From: Diacronema lutheri
Taxonomy: Eukaryota > Haptophyta > Pavlovophyceae > Pavlovales > Pavlovaceae
Length of the DNA: 46,258 nucleotides
Assembly: GCA_019448385.1 (NCBI GenBank)
Contig: JAGTXO010000096.1
Coordinates: 1-46,258, forward strand
Reading direction: 5' to 3'
The notes under the pieces are model-generated. The model had not been told where the DNA came from. It worked only from the letters and a program-made list of their open reading frames with translations, and did not search any database. The position numbers and the translations under genes were made by a program. This document shows, piece after piece, positions 7,108 through 37,846 of the stretch. Every line of letters begins with the position of its first letter. Within the stretch, counting starts at the first letter, position 1.

Positions 7108-7199
7108 CTGGACGTCGAGCGTGTGCGCCTTGTCCGCACGTGTGCACTCACGTGCGTCTGCGGCGATCTGCCCGGCGTAGTAGTCCGCGCGCGCGGGAG

Positions 7200-7360: not shown

Positions 7361-7445
7361 CGGGAGGATTCAAGGCGCCGAGCCGCTGCGGGTGCGGCGG
7401 GAGGCCCCGGGCGGGTGTGCTAATGCGGCTCGATGGCCGCCTGCC

Positions 7446-7468
7446 GGGGGGGGGGGGGGGGGGGGGGG
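7446..7468. repeat. poly-G tract
   Basis: 23 consecutive G. On the minus strand it is a C run ending in CCGGCAG, which could be a splice acceptor with a C-rich tract. Confidence 0.9.
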
Positions 7469-7559
7469 CGTTGGGCCGCCCGCGGAAACGGAGGTGAGCG
7501 TGTGGGAGCGGCGCGCGTCGGCGCGCGCGGCTGGCGTGCAGCACGGATAAGTCTTGTGT

Positions 7560-8416: not shown

Positions 8417-8419
8417 CTG

Positions 8420-15800: not shown

Positions 15801-18018
15801 CGCTCTTCGTGCTCGTCGACGCGGCCGACGCGGCGGGCGACAGCGACGCCGCGCTCGGCGCGCTCGCGGCCGCGGTCGACGCGACGGAGCTGCGCCCGCC
15901 GCCGGCCTTTTGGCGCGCGGGCCGCGCCGCGGCGTACGCACCGCGTCCGCCGCCCCTCGACTCGGCGCGGCCGCGCTACAACCGGCGCGCGCGCGCACCT
16001 AGCCCTCCCGTCGCGGCCGCGCGGCGCAATCTCGCGCGCGCGGTGCGCGAGCTCACGCGCGCCGCGCGCGCTGAGCGCGATCGCGCGCCGGCGCCGCGCG
16101 GCGCGCGCGGCGGCGTGCTCCACGCGCTGCGCGCGTCGCTCCCCGTGCACGCGCGTGCCGCGCTCGGCACGGACGCGGAGCTGCGCGCGGACATCGCCGC
16201 GTTCGCGCGCGCGCGCCGCGAGCTGCACAGCCTCACCGACGCCGAGGTGGCGGCGCTCGCGCGCCCGGACGGGCCGCCGCTGCCCGTGCGGCTCGCGTGC
16301 ACGGCGGTCGCGCGCGCGCGCGGCGTGACCGTGCTGCTCGACATCGTGCCGCGCGGCGGCGGCGCGCCCGAGCGGCTCGTGTGCCGCGCCCGTCGCCGCG
16401 GCGCCGCCACGCGCACGCCACGGCCGACAGCCGCCGTTATCGCGCGCGCGCCTTGCATAGCGGCGCGCGTTGGCCACACTGAGCCGGCGCGCGCGTGCGC
16501 GGGCGGATCGATCGGGGTCGCGCGCCTCCGTTCAGCGCGCCGCCGCTCTTGGCGTGGGGCGCGGCTCGACGTGCACACCCGCGAGCGGCTGGCCACACCG
16601 GTGCCAGGCCACGTCGTGGCCTGCGCCGCCGCCTCGGCCATCGGCGCGTGCGTCGCTCGCGCGCGGCTTGGGCTTGCACGGCTGGCGCGCGCGTGGCCCT
16701 GCGCCTCCGCTCCACTGGCCACTGCTGCTGTCGCCTTCGCGCCTGCCGCCGACGGTGTTTTCTGCGCCCCGCTGGGCGCTCCTGCATCCGCCTTCGCGCC
16801 TGCCGCCGACGGTGTTTTCCCCGCCGTACTAGCCGCTGCTGCATCCGCCTTCGCGCCTGCCGCCGATTTTCCCGCCCCACTAGTTGCTCCTGCACTCGCC
16901 TCCGCGCCAGCCACCGACGGCATTTTCCCCGCCCCACTAGTCGCTGCCGCTGTCGCGTCCGCGCCTGCCGCCGCGGGCGTGTCTTCCGCCCCACCAGCCA
17001 TCGCCGCCGCGCCCGCCGCCAACGTGCGCACCGCCAACGTGCCCGTTGCCAACGAGGCTACCGCCACCGAACCAGCCGCCCTTGAGCTTCCCCTCCAACC
17101 CGCCAACTCGGCGCTGCTTGCGTGGGCGGGCGACGCGGCTGCGCGCCGGCTGGCCTCCGCCGCCGCGAGCGCCGGCCTCCCGCAGGCAGAGGTGGAGCGC
17201 ATCGCCAGCGGCGACATGCTCGCCTCAACCGTCGACGCGTGCTGCGAGGTCGTGCTGCGCGTGCACGGGCAGGCCGGCGGCGGGCATGTCTGCCACGTGC
17301 CGCTCGCCGCGCAACCCGCGGTGTTCCAGGACGGCGCCGAGCGCGCCGCGCTGCTGCACCGCCTGCGCAGCGAGGCGACAACGCAGGCTGTCATCGGCGT
17401 GTGGAGCCCGTCGGACGAGCGCGGCGGCGCGGGCGGTGACGACGGCGCGCAGCTCGCCTCCGGCCATTTCACCGCGTTGCGCCTTGTGCGCGTCGCGCGC
17501 GCGGGCGAGCATCGCTACGACGCGGTGCTCGTCGACACGCTCGCGTCGCCCTGCAGGCAGGCGCTCATGCTCGCCAAGGCGATAACTGCCACGCTGCACG
17601 CGGCGGGTCTCGACATTTCGCGCGTGCGCCGCGCGCTGCTGCTCAACGAGGCGGCGCAGCGTGGCGCGACGTGCGGCCTCGCGATAGTGGGCGCGCTCAA
17701 CGACGCGCTCGCCGCGGCGGGCTGCTCGTCCGCGCCGCGCACGTTCAGCGTGGCGGACATGTACGCTGTCGGCGAGCGCCTCCGCGTCGCGCTGACCGGC
17801 GCGGCCAGCGATCGTGCGCCGGGCGGCGTCTGCGCGGTCACGAGCGCGGTGCGTGGCGGGGGCAGCCCCGATCGCGCCGAAACGCCGCCGCAGACGCGCG
17901 GCGCCAAGGCCGCCGCTGGCGTCACCGCCGCCGCCACCGCCGCCGCCGCCGCTGCTGCCGCCGCCGTGGCCGCGCCGCCACCGCCGCCACCGCCGCCGCC
18001 GGCCGGCGACGAGGACGA

Positions 18019-18066
<48 letters not shown>

Positions 18067-21000
18067 GCGCACGTTCTTGAAGCTCGCGCCCAGGGCGCGC
18101 GCGGCCGCCTCGGCGCGTGAGGCGTTGCGCGCCGCGTGTGCGCGCGCGGACGCGGCGGCGTCGTCACACGCGTCGGCGCCGCACGCGCCCGCCGGTGCGC
18201 GCCGCCGGCGGCGCGCGGGCGCAGGCGAGCTGGCGCTCGCGGCTGCGCGCGCGCTCGCCTCGACGGAGCACGGCGATTTGACGGACGACGCGCTCGAGGC
18301 CGCCATCGAGCAGGAGCTGGGCGACGAGCGCGGCCAACTGCTGCTGTGCACGCGGGGCGCAGCGGCGCAAAGGCCCGCGCTTTGCCGGCTCCTGAAGCAC
18401 GCGTGCGCGTCGGCGCGCGCGGCAAAGCGCGCGCAATTCACGGTGTTCGTCGTGCGCGCGGCCACGCGCGGCGAGCGGGGGGGCGCCGCCGCGAGGCGCG
18501 TGGACTCGGTGGTCGAGCTGTCGTGCGCGCTGCACGAGAAGGCGGGCGCGCTCGGCGGCCTCCAGAGCGTCTGTGTGCGTGGCTTCGCCCTCGAGCGCCG
18601 CCGGACACTCGACGCTGGCGCCGAGGCCGGCGCGTCCGCCATCGGCCAGGACGAGCAGGTCGAGGCAGAGGCGGGCGAGGCGTGCGTCGCCGGCGTGACG
18701 ATGGCCAAGCAGCTGCGTCAGTTTGCCGAGCAAGCTGCCCGCGACGACGTGCTCTTCCACGTCGCCGTGTCCGAGGCCGACGCCCACGCCCGGCTGGCGC
18801 GCGTTGCGGGTGACGATGTCGGCGCGTACAGCGTCGTGCTCGCAGTCGCCGGGCTCGTCTGGCTGGCCAAGGCCGACGAGGTTGCGCCGGCGGCCGCCCA
18901 GCCCGCCGCCGCGCCGCCCGCCGCCTCGCCTGCTGCCGCCACGTCCGCCGACGCCGAGCGCGACGCCTCGCCTTCCGACCGCCTGCGCGCGCTGACGCTC
19001 GCCGTGCGAGTCGCGCTCGCGCGCGGCGTGCTGCGCCACCTCCTCGCCGACGCGTCGCCGGGCGCGTCCGCGACCGCTGGCGGTAGTTGCGCGACGCCCG
19101 TCGAGGCGGCCGCGTCCGCCGCCGCGCCGCCCGCCACGGGCGTCGTAACGAGTGGCGTTGCGGCGGGCGCTGTGGCGGCCGCACCGGCTGCTGCGGGCGG
19201 GGCGACGGCGGGTGCATCGCCCATCACGCGGCCGGCGAAGCGCGCGCGGCGCACGCTCACCGCCGCTCCAGCCACCTCGGCCGTTGCGGCCGCTGGAGGC
19301 GCACGCGCTGGCGCACGCGGCGCGGCCGGCGCGCCTCGCGCGCGCGCCGCGCGCGCGCCGGCCGAGTACGTCTGGCTTGCCATCGCGCGCCGGATGCTGG
19401 CGGCGCGACACGCGGCGGCCGCGGGCGGCGACTTTGTCGCGTCGTGCGTCGCCGCGATGCAGGCCGAGTACGGCGACGGCTGTGCCGTCGTCGTCGGCGA
19501 CGCGCCTGGTGACGCCTTGGTCGAGGCTGCGGCGGCGGCGCTGCTCGAGGGCAAGCACGCGGCGGTGAGCCTCGGCTGCGTCGACCGGCCGGCGGTGCTC
19601 GTCGTGCAGCGCGCCGTGGACGCGCCCACGTCGCGCGTGCACGGGTGGTGCGCGCACGCGGCGGGCGCCGCCGAGTTTGACGAGGGCGCCGCGCACGGCG
19701 TGTTCAACGCGATCGTCGAGCGCGCGTGGGCGCTGCGTCCGGACCCGGCCGACGGCAGCCCGCCGCCCACGCGCACGTGGGAGGTCGAGCGCATCGCTGA
19801 CGACGCGCCCGACCAGGCGGGCGTGGCCGCGCTGCGCGTGCTCTACGCGCTCGTCGCGGCGCACGGCCGCTACCGCTCGGCCGCCGCGCTCTCTGGCGCG
19901 CTCGCGCAGCTGCACGCGCCCGACGCCGCCGGCGCGCGCGCGGAGGTCGTCGCGGCGGCGTGCGCGGTGCCGCCCGGCGCGCGGCCGGGCGCCGCGCCGG
20001 CGGCCGCGCGGGACGACGCGAGGGAGCGCGCATGGGAGGGCGCTCGGATCGCCGCGCTCGCCGTCGGCGCGGACGCTGCGCGCAGGCGTGTCGCGCCCGT
20101 GCGCGCGCTCGTCGACGCGCTCGGCACGCCACCGACCTCGGCGATCACGGGCGGGCCGGCGGTGCGGCTCGCGGGCGCGGGCGACGGCGGCCACGGTGCA
20201 CGGTGGGTGGGCGGGCAGGCGGCGACGCCCGCCGAGCAGCTGCCGAGGGAGCTGCTGCGCGCCTACCACGAGGCGGTGCTGTGCGTCACGCCCGGCAGCC
20301 TCCAGCTCGACTCGGCGGCGCTCGACGCGGTCACGCGGCCGCGCGAAGACGACACGCTGGAAGGCCTCCTCGCGCGCGTCAGCTGGCAGTGCGGCGCGAG
20401 GGCGAGCACGTGCGCCATGCTCGCCACGTTTTCCGAGCAGGCGGGCACCGGCTCGCGCGTCGCGCTCAAGGCCCTCCGCACGAGCTCCGACCTGGCCGGG
20501 CTGACGGCGGCTGCGGTCGGGCAGCAGGCGCCGCAGACGCCGCCGCCGCCGCTGCTCGTGATGCTCGGCCGCTGCCCCAGCCCGCTCGTCGGCGGCGGCC
20601 TCTTCCCGCCCGACCGCGCGACGGGCGAGCCGGCGGTGCACGCGGCGACGTCCGAGCTCGCCGTCGAGCTGCTGCGCGACGCGCGCGCGCTGGCCGGCAC
20701 GGACGGGCGGCTCGTCGTGCTGTGCCTCGAGGCGTCCAACCCGCTCTGGTTATGCCCCAAGGTGCGCGAGCTCGAGCTGCCGCGGACGCGGTCGGACGGC
20801 GTGCGCGCGTCCGGCTGCACCTGCCCTGCGACGTGCAGCGATGCGCGCGGCGCGGCGGGTGGCGCTGCCCGCGGCGCATCGACGCGGCCGGCGGCGCGCG
20901 CGATCAACAAGGCGGTGCTCGACCACTTCGTCGCGCTTTTCGGCCGCGAGGGCTTCGCGACCTTTGAGTTTGCGGGCGGCGGCGAGGCGAGCTGGCTGTG

Positions 21001-24000
21001 CGACAGCGCGGCCGGCAAGACGACCGTCGCGGCGTGCGCGTCGCTCCCGCCGCGCATGGGCGATGGGCAGCTGGCCATCCGGCGGCACACGCTCGGCACG
21101 GGCGCCGACGCGCCGGCGCACGCCGTCGTCTCGCTCCGCGTCGCGCACGTGAGCCACGCCATCCGCCGCGCGGCGGACGACGGCGGCGCGCGCGCCGAGC
21201 GGATGGCGCGCGCCGCGCGCGCGTTTTGCGATGTGGCGGCCGCGCTGCGCGTCGACGCGATCCTGGCGGAGGTGCCCGAGGACCGCCCGACGGGCACGCC
21301 CTTCCTTGGCGGGCTGCTCGAGTTTTGGAACAAACGCCACGGGAGCTCGACGGCGCCAGCCACGCTCGCGCTCGGAGACGTGCGCGAGGTGGCCAAGCGG
21401 ACGGCCGACGCAGCGGCCGGCCGAGCGGACGAGGTCCCTGCGGCTGGCCGTCCGCAGGTCGCGGCGCGCGCGTGCGCTGGCGCGATTGGCGGCGGCGCGG
21501 GCGCGGCGGGCGCCTCGGACGCTGCGCCCCGTGCACTGGCGGGCGCGTCGGGTGCGCGCACGGACGGCGGCCCTGCCGACGCACCGCGCCAGCTGGAGAG
21601 CCGCTACGGCGAGGCGAGCAAGCTCGACCTACCCCAAGATTCCACTACGGGCTGCGTCCTCGACGCTCGCGAGGCCCAGGACCGCGCGCGCGTGCCTGCT
21701 GCGCCCGACGGCACAGCGCTGCGCCGCGTGCTCGACGCCGTCGGCGCGGGCGCGCCCGCGCAGCGCAGCCCGCGCTGGCACGACGAGCGATGGGAGGAGG
21801 TCACGGGCAGCAAGGTTGGCGACGTCGTGAACGACAACGCCGGCGTCGCGCACGAGACGCTCACCGACGAGTACGTGCACCGGCGGCGGCGCGAGGTGCG
21901 GACCAAGGCGACGACCGCGGGCATCCTCGGCGAGGCCGTCGCGCTGCGCAAGCTGGCGGCCGCGTACGGCATCACCGTCGTGTGCAACCTGCCGATGGTG
22001 CGTGCGGACCCGCACGACAAGAGCGCGCCGTTCGCCTTCTCGCCGGACGGGCTCGCCATCCTCCCCGAAGACAACGAGCAGGTCCTCGTCGAGGTGAAGA
22101 CGCTCACCAAGGCGGACGCCAAGGCGCACGAGGACGGGCCGCCGCAGCCGCACCGCGATCAGCTGCAGCTCGGCATGCACGTCCTCGGCGTGCGCAAAGC
22201 GCTCTACGTGCAGTACCTCAGGCACGAGGACCGGATCGTCGTGCACGTCGTGACGCGCGGCGTCGGCTGGCTTGCATTCGCGCAGCCGAGGGTGCAGGCC
22301 TTCTGGGCGCGCGTCGTCGAGCGGCGCGCGCGGCTCGAGCGCGCGCGCGCCGACCACCCGGCTGCGAGCCGGCGGCACCGGCGGCAGCGGACGCCGGCCG
22401 GGCCGCCGCTCGTGCTCGCGCTGGACGGGCGCATCCCCGCCGCGCGCGCCGCCGCGCTGCACGCCGTCGCGCACGGCACCGCGAGCGCGGCGGCGGTGGC
22501 GGCGACGGCGGCGACGGGCGACGCGACGGCGTTGCAAGACGCGATCGCGGCGCTGCGCGCGCCCGTCGGCAATGCGGCGATCGACAGCGCAGCGCGTGCG
22601 GAGCGCGCGGCCGTCGAGCGGGCGATCGCGTACCTCGGGCAGCCGGCAGGCGACGCCGCCGCCCGCGGCACGGCCGAGGCGGCCGAGGAGGAGAGGACGG
22701 TCGACGCCGACATCTGCGCGTTGCTGCACCAGCTCGGCGCGAGCGTGGCGCACGTGCACGTCGAGGACGCGGATTGCGTCACGCGTGAGCACTGGGGCGA
22801 GGCGGTGCTCGCTGCAGCGGGCGACCCGTCGAGCGCCCCCGCCATTTCGAGCGTCATCGTCGCGCACATCGTGCGGCTCGCCGGCTTTGGCGTCGAGCTC
22901 CCGCAGTCGATTCGCGTCGCCCCCAGCACGGCCGACTGGCACGAGGGCTGGCTCGACGTGCAGTGCGTGCTGCTGCGCACGCGCCGGCGCGGGCGGCGCG
23001 ACGACGACTTTGTGGCCGTCGTCAGGCGCGGTGGGCGCTGGTTTGCGTGCGAGCCCGGCCGCGCGCGGCGGCTGCAGTGGCGGTCGGTCCTGCGCCGCGC
23101 GCGCGGCGGCGTCGACGGGACCGGCGAGGAGGCGTTCGCGGTCGTCTACGTGCGGCGCGGCGACGCGGCCGGCGACGCGGCTGGCGACGCGCAGGCCGAA
23201 CGGGCGCGCGGCGGGCGCGCGCGCAGGCGCACGCGCGGCGGCACGCGCAAGCGCAAGCGCGGCGCCTCCGCCGGGCTCGAGGCGGCCGCGCCCGCCGGCG
23301 CGCCGGCTGCCGCGCCCGCCGGCGCGCCGGCGGGCGCTGCTCACCGCCCGCCCGCCATGCGCGCGACGGTCGCCGCGCGCACCACGCGCTCTGTGACCGA
23401 CGCGCGGCACTCGGCGCCTGCCGCCACGGTTGCACCTGTCTTCGACTGGCGCGCCGGCCGCCCGCCCCCCGCCGCTCGAGCCCGCCACCCGCGGCCGCGT
23501 GGGCGCGCGCCACCGGGCAAGGCCTGGGACAGCGTCTCGGGTGCGTGGGCGGACAAGCCGACTGGTGCTGCCGTCGCCGGCGCGCCGCCGCCGCTGCCGC
23601 TCGCCGCCGCGCCGCCGCCCACCGCCGCGCCGCCGCCCGCCGCCGCGCCGCCGCCCGCCGTCGCGCCGCCGCCCGCCGCCGCGCCGCCGCCGCCGCCGCC
23701 ACCGGCGGCGCTCAACCGCTGGCAGCACGTCGGCGCGGGCGGCAGCGCGGCGGGCCGGCGGCTCGCGGCCATCGCACGGCGGCAGCGCGGCGTGCGCGCG
23801 CCGCCGCCCACCGCGCGCTTCCTCGCTACGCTGCCGCCACCGCCACGCGACGGCCTCGCGCGCACGAGCAAGCAGGCGCGCGCGAGGCGCAACGCGGACG
23901 GACGGCCGGCGCACGCGCGCGCGGCCAACGCGCGCGCCTTCTACCGCGGCGTGGAGCTCGGCGTGCACGCGACGCGCGCCATCGTCGACGCGCGCCACGC

Positions 24001-27000
24001 CGACCTGCCGCAGGCCGTCTTCGTGGCGGAGGCGCGGGCGATCGTCGCGCGCTCCGCCGGCGGCGGCGCGCTGCTCGCGCCGGACGACGTGCGCGACCTG
24101 TGCGACGCGCAGACGGACGCCGATCGCGCTGCGATCTGGGCGTCGGTGGGCGCGCACGAGGCGACGCGCATCTTCGCGCTCGTCACGCGCAACGCGAGCT
24201 TGGCGGGCGCGGCGCTGCTCGTGCTGCACACGCCGGCGGGCGCGCCGGCGCGCGCGCTCGGGCTCGTGGCGACGCGCTCGCGCGCGCCGTCGACGGGCGC
24301 GCCGCGCGACGCGCACAGGGCGCTGGTGCAGCGGTTGGACGTGCTGATGGACGCGATCGCCGCGGCGCGAGGCGCGTCGCCGCTCGAGCTCGAGCTCGCG
24401 CTCGCGCCCGAGCCGCAGAGCGCGTGCAACGCGCGTGCGGCCGCGCTGCTCTGCCTGCAGGCCGTCGCGGACGCGAGCGGCCGTCCCGCCGCTGAGGACG
24501 CGCTGGCCGCGCTCGACGACGCGCGCGGCATCGACCGGCACTGCCACGCCGTCCGGCAGCAGATCGAGGCGAAGCTCGCGTGGCGGCGCGCCGACGGCGC
24601 CGTCGGCGTTGACGGCGCCGACGGCGCGCCCGCGCTCGCGCCTGCCGCCGCACCGCCGGCGTGCGCGCCGGCGCACGCTGCCGGCGAGGCGGCGGTCGAC
24701 CAGGCGATCGTCACGCGGGTGCGCGACGCGCTGCGCGCGTGGGCGACGACTGGCACCGCGCCCAGCGCGGCGGTGCTCGACGACGCCTGCGCCGCGTACA
24801 CGGCGCGCGCACGCGCGCGCAAGGACGCGCGCACGGCGCTGGGCCCGACGCGCGCGGCCGAGCTGCTCGCCGCGGCCGCGCGCGGCGGAGCCGACGGGGC
24901 GGATGCCGCGCGCGCGCTGCTCGGCGGCACGCCGCGCCTGCTCGTCGTGCTCCTCTGCGTGCCCGTCGCCGCGCCGTCCGGCGAGCCGCCGCGCCCGGTC
25001 GGGCTGCTCGTCGCCGACCGGCCGATGGACGACTCGCGCCCGGCCGCGCTCGTGCGCTACGACTTTGCGCCGCTCGACGCGGACGTGGCCGTCGCGGTCG
25101 GCGCGCATGCCGTCGCGCTGGCCAGTGCGATCTGGGCGCTGCTCGCGGCCGAGGGGGAGCCGCGGCCATCGCCCGTCGTGCGCTCGCAGCCGCGCGGCGG
25201 CGACGATGGCGCGCGTGCGCTCGCAACGTTCGCGTGCCTCGACGCGCTGATGACCGCCAGCGTCGGCGCGCACGGCCTCGCGGGCGGCGCGGGCATGCTG
25301 CCCGCGCTGGTCGCGCGAGGCGCCGCGGCCGCCCAGCGCGAGCGGCAGCTGCGCGCGGCCGCCGAGAGGCTGGGCGGCACGGTCGCTGGGTGGCCGGACA
25401 CGGGCGCGAGCGCGGCGGGCGCGAGCGTCGACGAGGAGGCGCGCACGTACGAGGTCGAGGCGGTCGTCGACGAGCGCCGCAAGGCGGGCAAGAGGGTGAC
25501 GTTCCAGTTCCGGATCAGGTGGCGGGGCTACGACGAGAGCGCCGACACGTGGGAGCCTGAGGCCAACGTGAGCAGCGACCTCGTCGCCCAGTTCCGCAAG
25601 ACGCGCGACGAGCAGAAGCGGCGCGCGGGCGGATCGGGCAGCGGCAGCGGCGGCGCGGGCGCGGCGTCGGCATTGGCGTCGGCGCCGCTTCGCGCGCACG
25701 GCGTGTCGGGCGCCGCGGGCGAGCGCGCCGCGGCGGGTGCCGCCGCGAGCGCGCGCGACGCCGCGGGCGCGCGCGCGCCGAGCGTTCCCCGCGCGCGCGG
25801 CGTCGAGCGCGCGCGCGTGGACGAGCCCGCTGCGCCGAGCGCGCGCGCCGCCGGCGGCGCGACGGCGCGCACGCGCGGCAGCGTGCTCCCGGGCTTCGTG
25901 GTCAAGCGCTCGACGCTCAACGCGGGGCCGCAGGCGGTGACGGCGCAGCCCGGTGCGCGGACGGAGCTGCGGCGCATCGCGGCGGCCGTGCACAGGCTCA
26001 CGACACAGGCGTACCGCGTCATCAACAAGGTGGTGCGCGACGAGGCTGCGGTGGCGAGCGCGCAGGCCGTCGGCGCGGCGTCGGGCGGCCCGTCGACCAG
26101 CGTGCACACGTCGACCACGATGGACAAGGGAACCGTCCGTGCGATCTTCTCGGCCATCGGCTGGCACAAAGACGAAAGCAGGTACGGTGCAACGCCCACG
26201 GGCAGGCCCACCGAGCAAGCCGCCGCGCAGACCAAGGCGGCGACGGCGCGCGCCGTCGGCGAGATGGCCGAGGGCGTCCAGCCCGTCTGCGCGGTGGGCC
26301 TCACGGAGATCCTCAGGGAGGAGGCGACGCAGGTGTCCACCGCGTGCCTGATGCACCCATCGCGCGTCGTGAACGGGCTGCTCCGCGACGTCGTCCGCGC
26401 GGCAGTCGAGCGCGACGAGGCGCTCGTCGCGCTGCCCGAGATGCAGCGAAACGTGCGCGTGCGCGAGCTGTGCGAGCGGCTGCTGCGCGGCGACGTGGAG
26501 GGCGCGCGCGTCGGCTGCCCCGCCGCGCTCGACCGCCACCTGCCCGACATGGTCCTCCACAAGATCGACTACAAGTGCACGCCCACGAAAAGGTGGAACT
26601 ACGACCGGCACACGACGCGCTACTTCCTCGTGCAGATCCGCAACCTGCAGCACGTGGCCGAGGGGCAGGCGCTGCTCTGCCGGCTCGCGCACATCCACAC
26701 GCAGCTGACCGGACGGCCGCCGCGGTACAATGTGGCGCCACTGCGCACGCACAATGTGCGCGCGAGGCGCGGCTGCCGCTGCCGCCGCCGAGCGCCCAAG
26801 CGCGCGCGCCGCCGCCGTGCGCGCCGCCCCGCGGCCAGGTTGGTCACGCGCCCGCGCGCTCGCATGCCGCGCGCTGCGCGCAGGTGCCGCGCAACGTGCG
26901 CCTCACCGCGAACGCCATCTGGGAGACGCTCCCGGACGACGAGCGCAAGGAGCTGCGCGTGCGGCTCAAGGCGCTGGACCTGCGCGACCACGATGGTGAG

Positions 27001-28388
27001 CCGATCAGGTGGACAGGCACAAACGGCAACACCCCGCCGATGTCGGACGTGCGCGTCAGGTACGCGGTCTTTGCGACGCGCTTCGACATCTCCAACCGCG
27101 TCTTCGACTACGCCGGGCGCGAGCGGCCGCCGGCCGATCTGCCGTGGCACGCGCGGCGCTCGTGGGTTGGCCTCGCGCCGCTGCCGCGCGTGCCGCTCCC
27201 GGGCCGGCAGCCCGTCACGTCGGTGGTGACGGACGGCGTCGCCGTGCACGCCGTCGGGACCGTCCTCGTGCCGAAAGCGCAGGCGCCGGCCGGCGGCTCG
27301 GGCGTCCTGCACCGCTGGCGCCGGCCGGACGGGCGCATCGCCGTCGCGCTCGGCTCCGAGCTGCGGCGGGCGATCGACGTCGAGGCGGCGGTCGTCGTCG
27401 CGGCCGACCCGAACATGGGCAACATCACCACCTACTCTGCGCACGTCGGGCGGGCGGCCGTCTGGCGGCAGTTCACGCAGCGCGCGCGCGCGCGCGCCGC
27501 GGGCTTTGCGCGCGAGACGGCCAAGACCAACGCGGCGCGGCGGCGCGTGCGCAAGGACGGGCGCGGCGAGGAGTTCAGCGTGGAGGCGGACGAGGCGCGG
27601 CTTGGCGAGGCGCACAGCGCCAAGGTGCTCGACGCGGGCAAATACATCGCCTTCCACCGCGAGAGCGCGCGGGTGCGCGAGCGCGCCGCCGAGCACGTGT
27701 ACGACGCGCCGGCGCGCCGCAAGGAGCGCTGGCGGCGCGACAGCGGCGGGCGGTCCAACGCGGCGTGCGTCGCCGAGGCGCTCATCGCGGCGCACTGCGT
27801 CGACGGCGTGACGCGCGACCGGCTGCTCGTGTGCGTGGGCAAGTGGCTGCGCGACCACAAGGGCGCGCAGCCCAAGGGCGCGCCGCCCGCCTTCCAGGTG
27901 GGGCTGCTGCGCGAGCTGCGGCGGCGCGGCGTCGCGGCCGTCTTCGTGCCCGAGCCGTACACGTCGATGCATTGCTCGATGCCGCGGCTCGCCAAGGGCG
28001 GCAGGCTGCAGCGCTGCGGCGCGGAGCTCGCGCAGAACCCGCGCCTGCCCGTGGCAAAGGGCGGCACGCGCACGGTGCACGCGCTCGTCATCTGCCCGGC
28101 GTGCAACGGCGGCAAGAAGCCCGTGCACCGCGACTACAACGCCGCGCGCAACATCTTCTACGACGTGCACGACATGGCGGCGCACGCGGCCGGGCGCGAC
28201 ACCACGTCGACGCCTGAGCGCTTTGCCCTCGTGCTCGCCTGGTGGGCGCGCGGCGAGGTGTGGGAGCGTGAGGAGCGCATGGTGCACGGCGAGGGCGACG
28301 ACTGCGACGACGAGTGCGACGGCGACGACGAGGGCGACGACGAGGGCGACGACGACGACGACGACGACGGCAGCGGCGACGGCGGCGG

Positions 28389-28421
<33 letters not shown>

Positions 28422-28608
28422 AGGCGGCGGCGGCGACGACGACGATGACGGCGGGGGAGGCGGCGGCGGCGACGGCGGTGGCGACGACGGCGGCGGGCGC
28501 GGCGGCGGTGGCGGCGGCGGCTCTCGCGCCCGCACCCCCGCCCGCGGAGCTGCCAGCGCCAGTGCCGGCGGCGGCAGCGCGCGCGGGCCGAAGCGCGGCC
28601 GGCGTTGA
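9811..28608 (+). CDS. giant polyprotein: Ulp1-like proteases, YqaJ nuclease, chromodomain, Fanzor nuclease
   Basis: The predicted exons are 9811-13488, 13622-26755 and 26884-28608. The introns 13489-13621 (GTAGGC...GCGCAG, 133 nt) and 26756-26883 (GTGCGC...GCGCAG, 128 nt) restore frame exactly, giving 6,178 residues. Order of modules: C48-like protease (about 35-185), possible membrane helix (1097-1120), Ala/Arg-rich linkers, second C48-like protease (about 2440-2590), less clear modules (about 2780-3800), YqaJ exonuclease (about 3940-4110), Pro- and Lys/Arg-rich segments (TRKRKRG near 23245 could be a nuclear signal), chromodomain (about 5165-5225), and Fanzor (about 5320-6050) with an acidic tail. 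The middle exon alone is an uninterrupted frame of more than 13 kb. The ATG at 9811 follows TCTGCAG, so an upstream exon is possible. I infer a mobile-element polyprotein, perhaps self-processed by its proteases. Alternatives are two or three separate genes, or a domesticated host protein. Confidence 0.7.
9913..10365 (+). other. Ulp1/C48-like cysteine protease module (first)
   Basis: Residues about 35-185 of the giant protein show the C48 order His-Asp-Gln-Cys. The His is in LAHWTAAY (H105, codon 10123-10125), the Asp in LLADSRT (D132), and the Gln and Cys in PPQSGAACC (Q173, C178/C179). The HW, DS and Q-x-G-x-x-C patterns match Ulp1/SENP-type proteases, many copies of which occur in plant, fungal and algal DNA transposons. 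All catalytic residues are present, so it could be active. Assignment is by motif only. Confidence 0.5.
13099..13170 (+). other. possible transmembrane helix in the giant protein
   Basis: Residues 1097-1120 (LRIVATVALGGAVFAGMSAL and onward) form an uncharged hydrophobic stretch between charged, helix-prone segments. It is the only clear membrane-span candidate I saw in the protein. Confidence 0.45.
13489..13621 (+). other. predicted intron 1 of the giant gene
   Basis: Donor GTAGGC follows a Trp codon and acceptor GCGCAG precedes GGG CGC. Phase 0, 133 nt; it moves the frame from the first to the second open segment. It contains a (CG)n run. A shorter alternative acceptor at 13564 (76 nt) also keeps frame. 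Confidence 0.6.
16709..17035 (+). repeat. in-frame minisatellite encoding Ala/Pro-rich ~20-residue repeats
   Basis: About five degenerate copies of a ~60-bp unit encode variants of PLVAAAASAFAPAADGVFPA. They lie in the giant protein just upstream of the second C48-like module and probably form a flexible linker. Confidence 0.7.
17250..17730 (+). other. Ulp1/C48-like cysteine protease module (second)
   Basis: SGHFTALRLV provides the His (H2508, codon 17465-17467), VDTLAS the Asp (D2531) and AAQRGATCGL the Gln and Cys (Q2572, C2577). The order and the Q-x-G-x-x-C-G pattern are those of C48 proteases. It is clearer than the first module and all catalytic positions are intact. Confidence 0.55.
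18015..18066 (+). repeat. GCC trinucleotide repeat (poly-Ala)
   Basis: An uninterrupted GCC array follows a Pro-rich segment inside the giant coding frame and encodes polyalanine. The repeat unit is three bases, so length changes keep the frame. Confidence 0.9.
21750..22295 (+). other. YqaJ / lambda-exonuclease-type nuclease module
   Basis: The module starts with SPRWHDERWEEVTGSK, typical of the R...TGS entry of YqaJ recombinases. It continues with ILGEAVALRKL (Glu near residue 3997), FSPDGLAI (D4035), VLVEVKTL (E4050 and K4052) and DQLQLGMHVLG (Gln motif), followed by a VQYLRHEDRIVVHVV strand. This is the full GE-D-ExK-Q signature of the lambda exonuclease branch of PD-(D/E)xK nucleases, which digest DNA ends in recombination. 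Such domains occur in phages, large DNA viruses and eukaryotic mobile elements. Confidence 0.85.
23590..23710 (+). repeat. Pro/Ala repeat (APPPA units)
   Basis: A 15-bp unit encoding AAPPP is repeated about seven times within the giant coding frame. It is preceded by PPGKAWDSVSGAW and a Lys/Arg-rich segment. Confidence 0.85.
25440..25615 (+). other. chromodomain
   Basis: YEVEAVVDERRKAGKR followed by FQFRIRWRGYDESADTWEPE reproduces the HP1-type chromodomain. The three aromatic-cage positions are present: Y5169, W5193 and Y5196, and W5203 of the WEPE signature is conserved. Chromodomains bind methylated histone H3 tails, and in chromovirus integrases and some DNA transposons they direct insertion to heterochromatin. 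Here the domain lies directly upstream of the Fanzor module in the same exon. Confidence 0.9.
25900..28210 (+). mobile_element. Fanzor (eukaryotic TnpB-like, OMEGA) RNA-guided nuclease module
   Basis: The RuvC-I motif VVVAADPNMGNITTYS gives D5779 (codon 27406-27408). RuvC-II lies in AVFVPEPYTSMHC with E5961 (codon 27952-27954), the Glu-x-x-TS arrangement typical of Fanzors rather than bacterial TnpB. RuvC-III is VHRDYNAARNIF with D6021 (codon 28132-28134). Zinc-ribbon cysteines are C5968, C5982, C6008 and C6011; the usual C-x-x-C of the first knuckle is altered because the second Cys is Pro. The N-terminal part (25900-26755) is helix-rich and would be the recognition/wedge region. Fanzors are RNA-guided DNA endonucleases encoded in eukaryotic transposons and giant viruses. 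All catalytic residues are present. Confidence 0.88.
26756..26883 (+). other. predicted intron 2 of the giant gene (inside the Fanzor module)
   Basis: Donor GTGCGC and acceptor GCGCAG, 128 nt, phase 0, between Asn and Val codons. It shifts the frame to that of the RuvC exon. The retained-intron frame ends at a stop at 27227-27229, so splicing is needed to make an active nuclease. Confidence 0.75.
28271..28605 (+). repeat. GAC/GGC repeat coding acidic Asp/Gly tail
   Basis: Imperfect GAC and GGC codon repeats encode a tail of Asp and Gly runs of about 80 residues, ending in the basic stretch GPKRGRR before the TGA stop at 28606-28608. The basic end may serve nuclear import. Confidence 0.85.
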
Positions 28609-29009
28609 CGCACGGCCGAGCCGCGCAGCGGTCGACGCTTTGCGGGCTCTGCCCAGGTCGCGCGCGGCTGGCGACGCGTACCGCATTCGGCACGCCCGTG
28701 CACGCCGCCACCCGTGGCCGAGCGCGCCGCACCAGCCGGCCCGCTCCAACCGCCGTGCGGATCACGGACGCTCGCTACGGCTCGTCGGCGCGCGTCACCT
28801 GCGCCGGCGGCCACGGCGCCGTCTGCTCCGGCCTCGTCGCGAGCAGCCCGACCGCTGCTCGCCGCCCGCACGCCGCCGCAGCAACGCTGCGCGTCGTGCT
28901 CCCCCGCTCGCCAAACGCGAAGAGCTCCCTCACAAGGACGTCCTTCCGAATGGCCCGCGCTGCACTCGGGGCGCTCGATCGTGCCCCTGATCGGATTTGG
29001 CTTGACCAT
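28609..29009. other. convergent intergenic region; candidate location of a Fanzor guide RNA
   Basis: 401 bp lie between the giant gene stop and the calcineurin B stop on the opposite strand. No gene or terminal inverted repeat was recognised. In known Fanzor and TnpB loci the guide RNA overlaps or follows the nuclease 3' end, so this is where it would be expected. No structure was demonstrated. Confidence 0.3.
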
Positions 29010-30050
29010 CTATACGATTGACGGGATGACGAGCGAAAGCGTCTGGTCCAGTTCGACATCGGATGACGCGACGACCTCGCAGAATTCGTCAAAGCTCACC
29101 TTGCCGTCTTTGTCCTTGTCTGCAAAAATCATGGTCTTGTCAACCACCTGCGCCAAGGGCCCGGGGGAATGGGAGGGAAGGGGAGGGAAGGGGAGGGGGA
29201 TGGGGGGGGGGGGGGGGAGGGGGGGTCACGAGCGATGGGAGATCCGACGGCACGTTCGCCACAAGGCGAGAGACGGGGCTAGTGCCGAATGCGCGCGCGC
29301 GCCCAGGGCAGCGGCCGAGCGCTCGCCTGCTGCAGCTGCGCGTCGCCCAGGTTGTCGCCGACCATCATCTTGAGGACGGTGAAGAGCTCGCCGTTGGTGA
29401 TGAAACCGTCGCCGTCGATGTCGTAGATTTTGAATGCCACTGCGACCGGGGGGGGGGGGGGGGGGGGGGGGAAGGGGTGGGCGGGGGGGGGGTGGAAGGG
29501 GCGGGACGGGGGTGGTATCAAGGGTGTCGCAAACGGGCCGGCGGGCGGGCGAGCTCAGCGGTTCCCTTTTTTAAAACCTCCCCCCCCCCCTCCCCTCCCT
29601 TCCCCCCCCCCCCCCCCCCCGCCCAGCGCGCACTGTGCAGCTTGTCGCCCTCGTTCTCCGAGGAGAAGACGGAGAGCGCCTGCACGAACTCGGCGAAGGA
29701 GATCTCGTTGTCGTTGTCCTTGTCCAGCACCGCCATCACGCGCTGCACGAGCGGGTTGGACGCTATGGACGGCACCTGTTTTCAAACACGATTCAATTGG
29801 GGCGGGGGATGGGTTTGAAAAGGGGCTGGCCGAGCGCGCGGCAACGCCACGGCGCCCGCGCTCGCGCTCGCGCGCGCGCAGGGCGCCGTCGCGCGGCTGG
29901 GCGGCGCGGGCACGGCAGGTGCCCCGTCGCGCACGGGGTGGGCGCTGGCTTGGGCAGGGAAGAAGGGGGGGGGGGGGGGGTGGGGGGGAGGGGGGGGGGG
30001 GGCACAACTGCCGGCGCGCGCACGTGCTCTTGCAGCTTTCGTGCAGGCCG

Positions 30051-31459: not shown

Positions 31460-32065
31460 CTACTTTGCGCGCATCGAGCGCAGCACCGAGCTCATCTCCT
31501 CGCGCTTCGCCTTCGCGCGCTTGTGCGAGCCGAGCTTGGACTTTGCGAGCTTGAGCGCGCGCTTCTCCTTGCCGACCTTCAAGAGCTCCTGTAGCCGCCG
31601 CTCGTAGGGCGCGAACCCGCAGACCTGCGCGGGCGCGCGGGTCCGACCGGCACGTGCGTTCGCGCGTGTGTGCGTGTGCGCGCGCGCAAGGGCCGCGCGC
31701 GCCAGCCGGTGCGCGCGGCGCGACGGCGTGGCGACAGGCGCACGCGACGCGCGCGGCGTGACGCGGAGAAGGCTGTGCGCACCTCGCGCACAATGTCCTT
31801 CACCACCTGCACACCCTTGGGCCTGTTCTTGCTCTTGCCCGTCTGCTTGCTCGCCGGGATGGCGCGCTTCGTGGTGACGTGCCCGCGGTTCTTGCCGACG
31901 GCGATGCCCGTCTTCGCGACGACCTGCGGCGCGGCGCGGCGCGCGATGCGCGCGATGCGAGGCGACGAAAACGTGTCGGCCTAGCGCGCGCCCCGCGCGA
32001 GCGCGCCGCGCCGCGCCCCGAGGCCACGCGCCGCGGCCCTGCGCATGGTGGCCCACCTTCGCCAT
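31460..32065 (-). CDS. RPL36: 60S ribosomal protein eL36
   Basis: Exons 32057-32065, 31783-31923 and 31460-31624 join to 315 nt (104 aa), the usual length of eL36. Exon 1 is only nine nucleotides (Met-Ala-Lys). Exon 2 encodes [15 protein letters not shown] and then [16 protein letters not shown]; exon 3 encodes [35 protein letters not shown] and [14 protein letters not shown]. These are the conserved eL36 blocks. The protein is a basic component of the large ribosomal subunit. Introns (133 and 158 nt) use GTGGGC and GTGCGC donors with CAG acceptors. The start codon lies 103 bp from that of the divergent coiled-coil gene. Confidence 0.95.
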
Positions 32066-32168
32066 TGCTGACCCACGTGCCGCGCGACCAGGTGGAAACA
32101 CCCGGACCAGCCGGACTCGGCGAGCGCACGCCCGCCGCCATCGTGCGCGCGGCCGTTCCCGGCGCACG
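32066..32168. promoter_or_regulatory. divergent promoter region of eL36 and the coiled-coil gene
   Basis: Only 103 bp separate the two start codons, so both promoters and 5' leaders must share this interval unless transcription starts inside the neighbouring gene. No TATA box is seen. Confidence 0.5.
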
Positions 32169-32678
32169 ATGTCGTTGTCCCACGACATCGTCTATCGCAT
32201 ACGGCCGCGGACGGCGGCGGCGCCGGGGAAGAGCGTGGGCGCGCCGCTGCCTGCCAAGCTGCGCCGGCAGCTCGGCGCCAAGGCCGGCCCCGCCATCGAC
32301 GGCCGCCCGCGCGAGCTGCGCGCGCTCCCGCCGACCGCCGTCGCCACGATCGGCGCGCTCGCCGCGCTCCGGCGCGGCGACACGGGCCCGCTCGGCGGCG
32401 TGGTCTCGCCGCCGCGGCCGACGACGTCGGCGGGCGCGTACCGCCGCCATCTCAGCCGCGTCGGCTCCGCTGGTTCCGCCGCCCACTCGGGCGGGCAGGG
32501 CGCGCTCATCGCGTCGTACGCGCACGGCGGCCGGGCCGGCGGCTCGCGCGTCGACGCACCGTGGGCGGAGGGCGGCGACGACGGCGTGGGGCGGTGGGTG
32601 GATGGTCGCGCCAGGCCCACGCGCGCGCGCTCCGCGCGCGCGCTCCTTCGCCACGCCCGACACGGCGCGTCATTTGAC

Positions 32679-32709
<31 letters not shown>

Positions 32710-34653
32710 GCAATGACACGCGCATGCGAAGCGGCGGCGGGAGCAGCAGCGATGGGGGCGGCGGTGGCGGCACGCGCGACTCGTCGCCTCGTGGCGGCGC
32801 CGGCCGCGAGCCGACCGCGCGCGGCTCGCCGTTCGGCGCGTGCCGCCGCGCGCGCAGCCCGCCGCACGCCGCCGGCGCGCGCGCGCACGGCGGCGCGGGC
32901 GCGCGCGCGGCGGCGCGCGGCGGCGGGTTCTCGGCGGTGGGTGTGCTCGCCGTGACGGCGGCGCAGCGCGAGGAGGCGGAGCTCGCGGCGGAGGCGCGCG
33001 CGTACGCCGCGCGCGGCGGCCGCTCCGCCAACGCCGCGGAGGATTCGGCCAAGCGCGAGCTGCAGCACACGCTTTTAAAAGTCGACCACTTGATGGCGCG
33101 CATCGCCGGTGCGCGCGGGCGCGCGGGCGCGTGGGCGCGCGCCGCGCGCCGCGTGCGCGGCGCACACGCCGGCACGCGGCGCGCGGCGCGCCTCGCGCGG
33201 CTTGCACGGGTTGGGGGGGGGGGGGGGGAGGGGGTTGGGTCGCCGCGTCGCGCGCATGCGGGGGCAAGGACGCTGCTGGGCGCGGATGGGGATGACGCGG
33301 AGGATCCGTCCGCATCAAGCTGCGCGCGCTCGCCCTCAGCGGAGGCATTCGCCAGACCTGCGGGGGCACCGGACCTTCCGGACGCGGACGGCGCTGCGCG
33401 CGCTCGCCCTCAGCGGAGGCATTCGCCAGACCTGCGGGGCCACCGGACCTACCGGACGCGGACGGCGCTGCGCGCGCTCGCCCTCAGCGGAGGCATTCGC
33501 CAGACCTGCGCGCGCGCGCGTGCGGCGCCGTTTTGCGCGCGCGCGGCAACGCCGCTGGCCGCGCGCCCCCGCGCCGCGCGGCCGTCGGCTGGCCTTTTCG
33601 GGGGCGCTTCATTTGGGGGGGCGCGATTTGGGGGCGCTTCATTTGGGGGGGCGCTATTTGGGGGCGCTTCATTTGGGGGGGCGCTATTTGGGGGCGCTTC
33701 ATTTGGGGCGCTTATTTTGGGGGCGCTTTTTTGTAACGCTCGCGCGCTTGCGTTGCCGCGCTGTGTCGCACCACGCGCGCGCCGCCTGCGCCCGCCGCGC
33801 GCAGCGCCGGTGGAGGACGAGGCGAACGCGGCGTCGCACGTGCGCGCGGCGAGCGGCGCCGCGCGCGCGCGCACCGTTCCGCCCGCGGGCGTGATCGCGC
33901 ACGTTGACGAATTCGAGTCGGACGATTTTGACGAAACCTCGGACGACGGAAGCCACGATGGCGGCGCGACGTTCAGCCCTGCGGTGCAGGCGCGCGACGC
34001 GGCGGCGGCGGCGGGCGCGCGCCGGCGCTCGGCGGCGCCGCGCGGCGGCGTGGCGGCGGTGCGTCCCGCCGCCGCCGCGGACGCGGACGGCGGCGTGGCC
34101 GCCGCCGCGGCGGCGGACGCGAGCGAGCGCCTCTCGCTCTCCGAGTGGCGCAAGGCGCGCGTGCTGAAGCGCGTGGGCGCGATCGAGGCGCGCGCGATGG
34201 CGCGTGACGTGGCGATGGAGGGGCTGCGCGTGTCGTTGGCGTGGGAGGAGGAGGCGCTGGCCGAGCTCGTCGCGCTCGAGGCGCAGCTCGCCGAGGCGGA
34301 GCGCGCGCTCGAGGGCGGCGCGCGCGGCGTGGGCGGCGGGCGCGGCGTGGGCGGCGCGGGCGGCGCGGGCGGCGCGGGCGGCGCGGGCGGCGCGGGCGGC
34401 GCGGGCGGCGCGATGCGCGGCGGCGGCGGTGGCCGGCGGCGCTCGTGCCGCAGCTCCACGAACGGTGACGGTGACGGTGACGGTGACGGTGACGGTGGCA
34501 GTGACGGTGACGATGCCGCTGACGACGATGGTGACGGTGACGGTGACGGTGACGGTGACGGTGACGGCGTGCGCGCGTTGCGCAGCGGCAGTGTCGGCCC
34601 GGCCGGCGCCGCCGCCGACCGCTCGGGCGACGGCGCGCGCGGTGACGACGCCG

Positions 34654-34690
<37 letters not shown>

Positions 34691-37600
34691 TGAGCTGCCG
34701 CACCTCGACACGGTCGGCGCCGACGGGTACGCCGACGCGATGCGCGCGTTCGCCGCGCGCAAGAGCCACCGCCTTGTTGCGCTCGGTGAGCTGCACGACG
34801 AGCTGCTCGCGCAGATCGGCGCGCGGGAGGCGGCGCGCGCGCGCGGGGGGCTACGCGACGCGCTCGCGCGCGCCGAGGCCGAGCGCGCGCGGCTCGCGGC
34901 GGCGGTGGCGGCGGCGGCGACGGAGGCGGAGGCGTCGCGCACGGTCGCGGCGCGCGCGCTCGGCGAGGCGGACGAGGCGCTCAACAGCGCGCGCGCGCAG
35001 CTCGAGGCGGAGGCGGAGGACGCGCGGGCGATGGCGGACGCGCAGCGTGCGGCGGTGCTCGGCGCCGCGGCGGCCGAGATCGCCGCGCTTGAGGCCGAGG
35101 CAGAGGTCGCCGCCGGCGCACTCGCGCGCGCGCACGGCGCGAGCGGCGGCGGCGGAGGAGGCGGCGACGATGGCGGCGGAGGCGGCGGAGGCGGCGGAGG
35201 CGGCGTGGCGCTGTGGCGCGCGACGGCGGCTTTGAAGGCCGTTGCGACCGCGGCCGCGCGTGAGGCGGAAAGCGCAGCCCAACTGCTCGGCGTACGGCTG
35301 CTCGAACACGAGCGCCGCCTGGTTGACGCGCGCGCGCGCATCGTCGGCTGGGGCGGCGTCGGCTCGGGCGGCGTCGGTTGGGGCGGCGTCGGTTGGGGCG
35401 GCGGCGCGCGGGGCGAGGAGGGCGACGGGGAGGCGGCGGAGGCGGCGGCGGCGGCGCGTGCGCTCGGAGCGCAGCTGCGTGGCGCGCAGGGCGTGGCGGA
35501 CGGCGAAGTGGTCGCAGCGATGGCGGACGGGGCGGGTGACGGCGAAGTGGTCGCAGCGATGGCGGACGGGGCGGCGGACGGCGCGCATGCGCGCGCCGAG
35601 GCGGAGGCGAGCGGCCGGCGCGCGGCCGAGCGGAGCGCCGCGGCGGTGGTCGCCGAGCTCGACGTAGTCTCGTCGCGGCTGCTCGAGTTGGACGCGGCGG
35701 TGGGCGAGGCGCGCGCCGAGGCGGCGGCCGAGCGCGCGCGCGCGGACGCGGCCGAGGTAGAGGCGCGCGAGGCGCGCGAGCGCGCCGTCGCCGCCGTCGC
35801 CGTCGCGGCCGCGGCCGACGCGCGCGGCGCGGCCACCGCGGCGGACGCGAACGCGCGCGTCGCGGCGGCTGAGGCGCGCGCGCGCGCGGCCGAGGCGGCG
35901 GCGTTGGCCGCGCTGCGCGCGGGCGGCACGCACCTGGCGCGCGCGCTCGCGCCCGGCGGCGGCGCCGACGCCGCCGCGCGCGCGCTCGCGCGCGCCGCCG
36001 CGCGCGCGCTCGCACGGCTTGCCGCACGGCTCGGCGCGCTGCAGAGACGAGTTGCCGCGCTGCCCGCGGCGTTGGCCGGCGTCGAGGCGCGCGCGCTGCG
36101 CGCCGCAGCCGAGCGCCTTGCGGCCTCCGAGCGCGCGCTGCGCGTGGAGACGGCCGCCGCAGCTGCGCGCGGCGGCGACGGCGGTGGTGGCGGCGGTGGT
36201 GGCGGCGGTGGTGGTGGTGGCGGTGGTGGCAGTGGTGCCGGCGGTGGCAGCCGATCCGCCGAGGACGCGCCGCCGCGCGCCATGGCGCGCGAGTTTGTCA
36301 TCGACGAGGCGCTGATGCGCGCCGCCTTGACGGTGGCGGCGGCGCGCGCCACCGCCACCACCGTCGGCGACGACGACGACGACGGCGGCGGCGACGGCGC
36401 CACCGTTGACGTGGGTGCCGTCGCCGCGCTGCTGCGGACGGCCCTGCGCGCGTCGATGGCGGGCGCGTTCGTCCCGTTCTCAAAGGAGACGCCGATTACG
36501 CTGCGTGTTCACGCCGACGGCGAAACGGCGAGCGTTGTAACGGCCGTGCGGCGCGCGCCGGTGGCGGGCGATGCGCGTGACGGAACGCGCGGCGTGCGCG
36601 GCGGCGGGGAGGCGGCAGGCGAGGCGAGCGACGACGACGAGGGCGACGACGACGACGACGACGACGCCGCGGGTGCATTCGCCGGCGACGAGGGCGGCGA
36701 CGGCGGTAGGCGCGCGCGCCGGAGCGCGCAGCGCGACGCGGCGAGGCGCGCGGCGGTGCGCGCGGAGGCGGAGGCGGCGGCGGCGGACGCGGCGCGCGCG
36801 GCGGCGGCGGGGCTCGGCGGCGCGGCTGTGGCCGCCGCGCTCGCTGCCGCCGAACCGCGCATCGAGGCGGGTGATGAGCATGGCGGCTTCCACTGGCTGA
36901 CTGTGGACGGTGTGCAGGTGTGCGCATTTGCTTCGCTTCACTGGGTTGCCCTTCTCTCACTGGGCAGCCCGCCTCTCACTGGGCAGCCCGCCTTGCACTG
37001 GGCAGCCCGCCTTGCACTGGGCAGCCCGCCTCTCACTGGGCAGCCCGCCTTGCACTGGGCAGCCCGCCTTGCACTGGGCAGCCCGCCTCTCAATGGGCAG
37101 CCCGCCTCTTACTGCGCGGTTCCGCTCTCACTGGGCCGCGCCTGGGCATGCTCTCCGTTTTACCGAGCGCTTGCGCCGTGCGGTGGGCGACGGGCGGAGC
37201 TGCCCGCGTCGCATGCCGACCGCGCCGCGCGCGCTGGCGTGTGCAATGCGCGACGCTCGTTGCGCTCTTTTCTGGCGACGTGGCCGCGCGGAGAGTGTTT
37301 GCGCGCCAATCACATTGCCCCGCGCGTGTGCAGATTGGCTGATTCTGGATCCCACGCGCCGCGCCCTTTTCCCACCCTTTTTCCCGCCCTTTTCCCGCCC
37401 TTTTGCCCGCCCCCGCGACCGGCGCAGGTGCGCGAGCTCCTGGGCGGCGGGGACGGCCGCTCGCCGCACGGCCTGCTGCCGGCCCTGGTCGCCGCGCAGG
37501 AGGCGGCGGACGCGAACGCGGCGCACGACGTGGCGGCCGACGCGCGCGCGCTCGAGCTCGCGCGCAAGTGGCGGCGCAGCGCGGAGGCGCGCGGCGGCTC

Positions 37601-37813
37601 GCTGCCGCGTCCGCCGCTCCCGCCCGGTTCGGCCACGGAGCCGACGGCGAAAGTGCGGCCGCGCCGCCTGTCGGCGGAGACGGCAGCCATCGTAGCGATG
37701 CGCCTCGCGGGCCAGCCGTCCGTGCGCGGTGGCGGCGCCATCTCTGCCGAAGGGGCCCTTCTGCGCCAGCGACGCCACTCGGGCGGCGCGCGCGTGCCGG
37801 CGTCGGCGTGGCT

Positions 37814-37846
<33 letters not shown>

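Follow-up and report, generated by a model that had tools for sequence, protein, structure and literature searches.

Jiang et al. reportedly described Fanzors, RNA-guided nucleases, in eukaryotes and viruses in 2023. IS200/IS605 elements with TnpB possess an RNA-guided nuclease on their 3′ side, a motif on the left, a variable right flank and no clear duplication. We analyzed a stretch of 46,258 nt from the haptophyte Diacronema lutheri (contig JAGTXO010000096.1, assembly GCA_019448385.1; hereafter, the window), for which an original prediction, made from the sequence alone, placed a complete Fanzor at the end of a giant polyprotein gene. The first 29,015 positions of the window are one copy of a high-copy mobile element of about 29–31 kb with defined ends, and the giant gene of this element closes with a Fanzor1-type nuclease. 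The element shares the IS200/IS605 layout. However, it is eukaryotic and far larger, and no TnpA was found.

The best solved match of the nuclease, by joint profile and by predicted fold (a weak model), is SpuFz1, the Fanzor1 of Spizellomyces punctatus (PDB 8gkh). In the available text on SpuFz1, the RuvC residues are D383/N385, E541 and D606, and D5779/N5781, E5961 and D6021 of the D. lutheri protein correspond to this layout; the SpuFz1 target-adjacent motif (TAM), CATA, resembles the TATATA of the present element (PMC10432273). SPu-1, which is taken to be the same protein, is described as a protein of 633 aa from an element of about 2.1 kb with 33-bp terminal inverted repeats (TIRs) (PMC3627910, available part). 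In contrast, the domain in D. lutheri closes a frame of 6,178 codons in an element of 29–31 kb without TIRs. The Chlamydomonas elements CRe-1, CRe-2 and CRe-3 are similar in that they are algal, encode a multi-exon Fanzor1, occur in high copy and possess a nearly fixed 3′ end and hairpins at both ends. However, these are non-autonomous Helitron2 elements with a TTTT target and with target-site duplications (TSDs) in truncated copies, and the available text of that report does not mention a giant gene, a chromodomain or an exonuclease (PMC3627910). In Auxenochlorella, the commonest repeat encodes a Fanzor, as the present element does; it is described as uncharacterised, and its architecture is not described in the accessible part of the source (PMC12633428). 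The giant transposons of Ectocarpus (KDZ, EnSpm and Sola-1, some of which exceed 30 kb) are similar in size and in their extra genes, but are DD(E/D) transposons, and neither Fanzor nor YqaJ occurs in the main text as available (PMC12477816). The D. lutheri element has no TIR, and Pfam detected no known transposase in the frames scanned, where divergent ones could be missed. Within the literature searched, which lay largely outside subscription papers, neither a Fanzor with this giant-gene architecture nor a combination of a Helitron with YqaJ was reported, and a Fanzor-chromodomain fusion is not described in the available text of PMC6338049, which names both. In the available main text of the genome paper, 22.9% of the genome is given as repeats, the annotated ones being mainly long terminal repeat (LTR) elements, and neither "transpos" nor "helitron" occurs (PMC8379373).

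The element, its termini and the giant gene are arranged in the window as follows.

1–29015, + strand: whole mobile element; this copy is 29.0 kb, and the first base of the contig is the first base of the element
1–56, + strand: 5′ terminus, GGCGCGGTCCGGGCTGGTC, with a perfect 18-nt palindrome at 39–56
9811–13488, + strand: exon A of the giant gene; frame 1, ATG at 9811, codon periodicity, one 3-nt insertion or deletion (indel) relative to the copy on contig C34
13489–13621, + strand: intron 1; 133 nt, one of seven frame-keeping GT..AG options, with a phase change
13622–26755, + strand: exon B of the giant gene; frame 2, 4,378 codons
21752–22327, + strand: YqaJ/RecE/lambda-exonuclease-type domain; phrog_434 RecE-like exonuclease, E = 1.2e-15
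25448–25600, + strand: chromodomain, upstream of the Fanzor; Pfam PF00385, 4.5e-12; PDB 2dnt (chromodomain Y-like), 1.1e-8
25883–26755, + strand: presumed N-terminal Fanzor half (candidate REC/WED region); collinear
26756–26883, + strand: intron 2, GTGCGCGC...GCGCGCAG; 128 nt, phase 0
26884–28605, + strand: exon C, with the RuvC nuclease, a zinc ribbon (TNB, 27916–28155) and a Gly/Asp-rich tail; frame 1, stop codon at 28606–28608
27406–27408 (GAC, D5779), 27952–27954 (GAG, E5961) and 28132–28134 (GAC, D6021), + strand: catalytic codons in exon C
28609–29015, + strand: 3′ untranslated sequence including the terminus; candidate region for an omega-RNA; ends ...TTGACCATCTATAC

The three RuvC residues that had been read from the sequence, together with the Fanzor-specific context of the glutamate, were found at the predicted positions. 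D5779 is kept in 16 of 17 copies (window included), and E5961 and D6021 in all 17. According to the available text of PMC10711439, the RuvC-II glutamate of Fanzors is relocated to a position six residues ahead of the zinc finger (ExxxxxxC), and DPG is near-exclusive in Fanzors at RuvC-I. The relocated glutamate is present as EPYTSMHC in 17/17 copies, and past the zinc finger, the RuvC-III aspartate forms part of an RD motif (HRD[YH]NAARN, 17/17 copies). The RuvC-I motif at 5779–5781 is DPN, not DPG, and fits the DxN of SpuFz1, where D383 and N385 are metal ligands; DPN occurs in 14 and DQN in 2 of the 17 copies. As for the zinc ribbon, Pfam Cas12f1-like_TNB was detected at 27.8 bits (cut-off, 26.3), and the second pair of the C4 zinc finger is CPAC. 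However, the first pair (CSMP...QRC) is C-x13-C, not CxxC. The profile match and the predicted fold (a weak model) both agree with the proposed identity, and two of the three conditions set for refuting the prediction therefore did not occur; the nuclease is related to Fanzor1. That the Fanzor is complete is uncertain; the presumed N-terminal half in exon B scored only 6.6 bits against a profile of the Fanzors of lineages B, C and D. Fanzor-type lineages in the genome number at least four (A, B, C and D), those other than the lineage of the element being located at L091, L103 and L099. On contig C36, the lineage D fragment (L099) ends about 1.2 kb from an element 5′ end.

Counted from the ATG at 9811, the three exons form one frame of 6,178 codons, and this frame and its residue numbering stood up in our analysis. 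The scan, which moved in 400-base steps, shows a shift of the codon phase at both proposed introns, to within one step. Along most of the giant gene, third-position GC is about 0.9 or above, and the periodicity is weaker at about 14.4–15.8 and 16.4–17.4 kb. The overall GC content is about 77%; the frame-2 open reading frame (ORF) has 4,578 codons, whereas 300 order-1 shuffles of this stretch reached no more than 1,515. The splice sites of intron 2 are identical in 13 of 15 copies, window included; of the remaining two, one lacks the acceptor motif and the other had been read on the wrong strand. Among 150 scored copies (from 203 candidates), 86 have an open frame of at least 4,400 codons around the exonuclease domain. 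Relative to the C34 copy, three indels, all multiples of three, occur in 18,420 nt of the giant gene (introns included); the 5′ half, over 9,052 aligned positions, has 36, and 33 of these are not multiples of three. The giant gene has one indel of 1 nt relative to C75 and two, both multiples of three, relative to C69; exon B has five relative to C14, two of them frame-breaking.

Nonsynonymous and synonymous differences were also compared (pN/pS, simple counts without a correction for base bias). For the nuclease exon, pN/pS was 0.24–0.44 in five copies (C34, C14, C1, L008 and L006), and 0.63 and 0.86 in L098 and L101. For exon B, it was 0.79–1.23 in the same five copies and 1.46 in L101. For exon A, it was 1.15 in C34; C75 and C69 were too similar to judge. 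Since the copies are not independent of each other, these ratios are suggestive only. Periodicity, indels and shuffles show that the giant gene has a conserved coding frame with the Fanzor at its end. One long translation product of 6,178 residues would be the simplest reading of this frame.

A second nuclease upstream of the Fanzor had also been predicted, and the YqaJ/RecE-type domain supports this. NCBIfam TIGR03033 matched the domain at 7.6e-6, below its cut-off. Pfam YqaJ gave 0.005 in the window copy, also below the cut-off, whereas the 150 matches listed for the whole genome exceeded it. The exonuclease part alone gave no PDB match below E 0.68. In contrast, proteases in the long ORF, which the prediction also named, are by-eye readings (Ulp1-like) and were rejected: across ten segments, Pfam matched no peptidase model, its hits being to three unrelated models, each under its cut-off, and the segment-to-segment comparison did not confirm them either.

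The original prediction overlooked that the nuclease belongs to a mobile element, present in high copy and with defined ends, of which it forms the 3′ part; this explains why it is found there. The sequence shared with the copies on C75, C69, C14 and C1 runs to window position 29015/29016. With the C34 copy, the match extends to the limit of the compared piece, and C75 and C14 share an identical 5′ start. In the genome searched (103 contigs, 43,492,796 bases), the 3′ terminus occurs 198 times exactly and the 5′ terminus 236 times with at most one mismatch; both reversed-pattern controls gave 0. Part of the 236 are short derivatives of the element. Ends were paired within 40 kb between 62 of the 100 listed 5′ ends (those on C1–C48) and 100 of the 198 3′ ends, listed on C1–C50. 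Among the 62, 38 were paired with a listed 3′ end (three pairs use the same 3′ end), and 24 had no partner among the listed 3′ ends. The 38 lengths were 31.0 kb (n = 13, the commonest class), 21.4–21.6 kb (n = 8), 26.2–26.9 kb (n = 6), 29.2–29.4 kb (n = 3) and others (n = 8). Twenty copies are internal to contigs, each with differing flanks on both sides. If most copies are 20–31 kb, the family would make up of the order of one tenth of the genome.

Contigs C1, C3, C8, C12, C14 and C43 and the start of the window terminate on, or one base off, an element terminus. Thus, the assembly is apparently limited by this repeat. Relative to C75, many single-base indels occur at the 5′ end of the window copy, as expected for poorly polished contig ends. 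The contigs that stop at the 3′ terminus had suggested a telomere-bound element. However, an assembly break at a repeat is simpler, and the window contig begins at the 5′ terminus, not the 3′ terminus, which weighs against that idea; telomere repeats were not searched. The copy on C69, which begins at the equivalent of window 7750, had prompted the idea of a 5′-truncated element like a long interspersed nuclear element (LINE). This was rejected because 5′ ends are as frequent as 3′ ends and no reverse transcriptase was detected.

The element begins with GGCGCGG and ends with CTATAC. At 32 of the 36 fetched 5′ junctions, TATATA plus one base precedes GGCGCGG; 20 of the 36 had been selected for G at −1, and therefore that base carries no information. 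The 3′ end reads ...CCATCTATA. Since TATA is found at both junctions, a 4-bp TATA duplication is possible. Of 20 copies with both ends, 19 have 0–1 nt in common between their flanks and the remaining one has 3 nt; a consistent duplication was not seen. The base after CTATA is C in 7/7 copies not selected by their end, an eighth (L005) having been read on the wrong strand; of three copies picked for lacking the full 3′ pattern, two read A after CTATA and the third was shorter. No TIR was found, and the 3′ terminal pattern matches the window only once. No empty site was found; the genome gave no haplotype free of an insertion. Two short derivatives, L081 and L082 (53 and 151 bp), possess the element 5′ end and lie directly before another 5′ end. 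From these, the element apparently inserts beside the TATA ends of its own relatives.

Hairpins are predicted at 28840–28861 and 28968–28987, both of which are also predicted in a second subfamily; with the palindrome at 39–56, hairpins thus lie near both ends of the element. Folded as RNA, the last 200 nt outperformed 195 of 200 shuffles (z = −2.14). When the last 91 nt were folded as DNA, the fold was no better than shuffles (z = +0.42).

The 21.5-kb copy on C14 differs in its N-terminal part. Window 6866–17093, a segment with all of exon A and the first part of exon B, is replaced by 2.4 kb of other sequence, and an ORF of 4,190 codons ending in the same Fanzor region is retained. Among the eight pairs of the 21.4–21.6 kb class, C14 alone was read. 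Since the ORF stays open, the N-terminal part of the giant gene is exchangeable. The family B Fanzor has the same 5′ terminus upstream of it, at a distance of about 24.6 kb on C75 and 24.1 kb on C25, and we infer that terminus and Fanzor belong to each other. At the B locus, a 3-kb PIF1 module is 94% identical to that of C34, and a different gene precedes a different Fanzor. Together, the C14 exchange and the family B layout suggest that the Fanzor on the 3′ side recurs while the remainder is swapped. Among the top word-sharing candidates scored from a set of 5.8 billion proteins, one relative of the nuclease exon and none of the long ORF or of family B was found. IMG/VR gave no confirmed relative, for a query in which about 440 codons upstream of exon C were in the wrong frame and supplied two of the six peptide patterns.

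Two domains were detected in the 5′ part of the element.

2724–3368, + strand: PIF1-like helicase domain of a 5′ gene; Pfam PF05970, 2.3e-37
5666–5932, + strand: ubiquitin carboxyl-terminal hydrolase-like domain; Pfam PF00443, 4.3e-8

In the copies on C75 and C34, the PIF1-like helicase domain extends over two frames, and the C34 copy gave a Pif1_2B match at 6.2e-13. The hydrolase-like domain apparently belongs to a separate second 5′ gene; it had no match at E ≤ 1 in the C75 copy. The start of an N-terminal part of the PIF1 gene, which is about 250 aa long, was seen in the C34 copy (L024:6168–6905, − strand) and at the family B locus. It lies within about 1.1 kb that is missing from the window copy, and in C34 it stands beside an inverted repeat of about 0.5 kb. 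A single-stranded-DNA-binding domain before PIF1 in C34 was considered and dropped; the AlphaFold pLDDT (a per-residue confidence score) was 33, and the two PDB matches had E 0.77 and 1.1.

Searches for mobility enzymes gave the following results. Pfam found no reverse transcriptase or integrase, the enzymes of a chromodomain LTR retrotransposon, in the frames scanned, which cover the − strand of 10–29 kb in part. Rep/HUH had no Pfam match on either strand of roughly the first 10 kb of the C75 copy, nor in the + strand frames scanned; on the − strand of 10–29 kb, one ORF was scanned, and a very divergent Rep could escape. The Helitron Rep model PF14214 matched the genome once, on contig C63:35738–36019 (L030), in a frame of 326 codons. 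Since it matched C63 only, Rep is absent from the element copies at that sensitivity.

We consider it somewhat probable that this C-terminal Fanzor1-type nuclease serves the homing of the element by RNA-guided cutting. The purpose of the cutting for Fanzors themselves is stated as unknown in the available text of PMC10432273. In the proposed mechanism, transcription of the element 3′ end would yield an omega-RNA, with the host sequence immediately past CTATAC as its guide, and the TATATA upstream of the 5′ end would act as the TAM. The Fanzor would cut sister or allelic sites free of the element; with an element-bearing copy as the repair template, the element would be restored or would spread, a course also proposed for TnpB in IS200/IS605. 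The nuclease may be tethered to chromatin by the chromodomain. Insertion at a new site would still require a further recombinase. The alga, which is culturable and sequenced, holds about 200 copies that are closely related and have defined ends; a guide is predicted in the 3′ flank of each, and TATATA lies opposite in most. Thus, the homing hypothesis is directly testable.

PIF1 is generally known as a helicase of break-induced replication. The presence of an exonuclease and PIF1 on the element itself suggests a bolder version, with element-borne resection and copying enzymes. The Fanzor would make a guided break at an element-free site, the lambda/RecE exonuclease would resect it, PIF1 would copy about 30 kb by break-induced replication, and the chromodomain would hold the nuclease on chromatin; spread within a population would then need no classical transposase. 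We regard this version as unlikely. A Fanzor joined to a chromodomain and carried together with PIF1 and an exonuclease of the resection type would give a new design, found in nature, by which RNA guides the copying of very large DNA.

The term "giant polyprotein" may overstate the product. Alternative promoters, splicing or proteolysis could release the chromodomain-Fanzor or the Fanzor alone as a shorter protein, and this is a serious possibility, if not one that we would favor. The exchanged N-terminal part of C14, the different upstream gene part of family B and a 570-aa predicted protein in a public set, which starts near exon C, point to the shorter protein, although the last is on a contig of 2,435 bases. 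On the other hand, the absence of any frame-breaking indel relative to C34 across exons A–C and the preserved splice sites between exons B and C argue for the long frame. As to how the element moves, the nuclease might instead be an accessory of a Helitron2-like rolling-circle element, comparable to the Chlamydomonas elements and moved by Rep in trans. The PIF1 helicase, the hairpins near both ends, the lack of a clear TSD and the one Helitron Rep of the genome are consistent with this, as is the Fanzor1 that Bao and Jurka described in Chlamydomonas Helitron2 (PMC3627910, available part). However, no Rep/HUH was found in the element scans, the target is TATATA rather than TTTT, and the ends lack the TC...CTRR of Helitron1; we consider this explanation unlikely. 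A classification as Helitron was rejected for the missing Rep and the different termini.

It is also conceivable, and quite unlikely in our estimate, that the nuclease is a passenger that cuts competing elements for the host or the element. The coexistence of the Fanzor-type lineages fits this, and the chromodomain could target other chromatin. However, its place at the 3′ end, beside a terminus with structure, is the one usually seen with omega-RNA (PMC10432273, available part), and the Fanzor of family B is likewise on the 3′ side; both speak against a passenger. For chance resemblance or an assembly artefact, one may cite the GC content, which lengthens chance ORFs, and the contigs that end at element ends. 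This reading is already contradicted by the contig-internal copies with differing flanks, by the ORF length relative to the shuffles, and by the profile and fold matches, and its probability is negligible.

Two further frames were observed beyond the element. In the downstream flank (31878–38918, + strand), a frame of 2,346 codons is open, and its sole match was a weak pentapeptide repeat below the cut-off. Directly downstream of the element, the coding end of an EF-hand protein (29010–29180, − strand; ...SLVIPSIV*) runs into the element. The final Val and the stop codon of this frame (GTATAG) come from the terminal CTATAC of the element.

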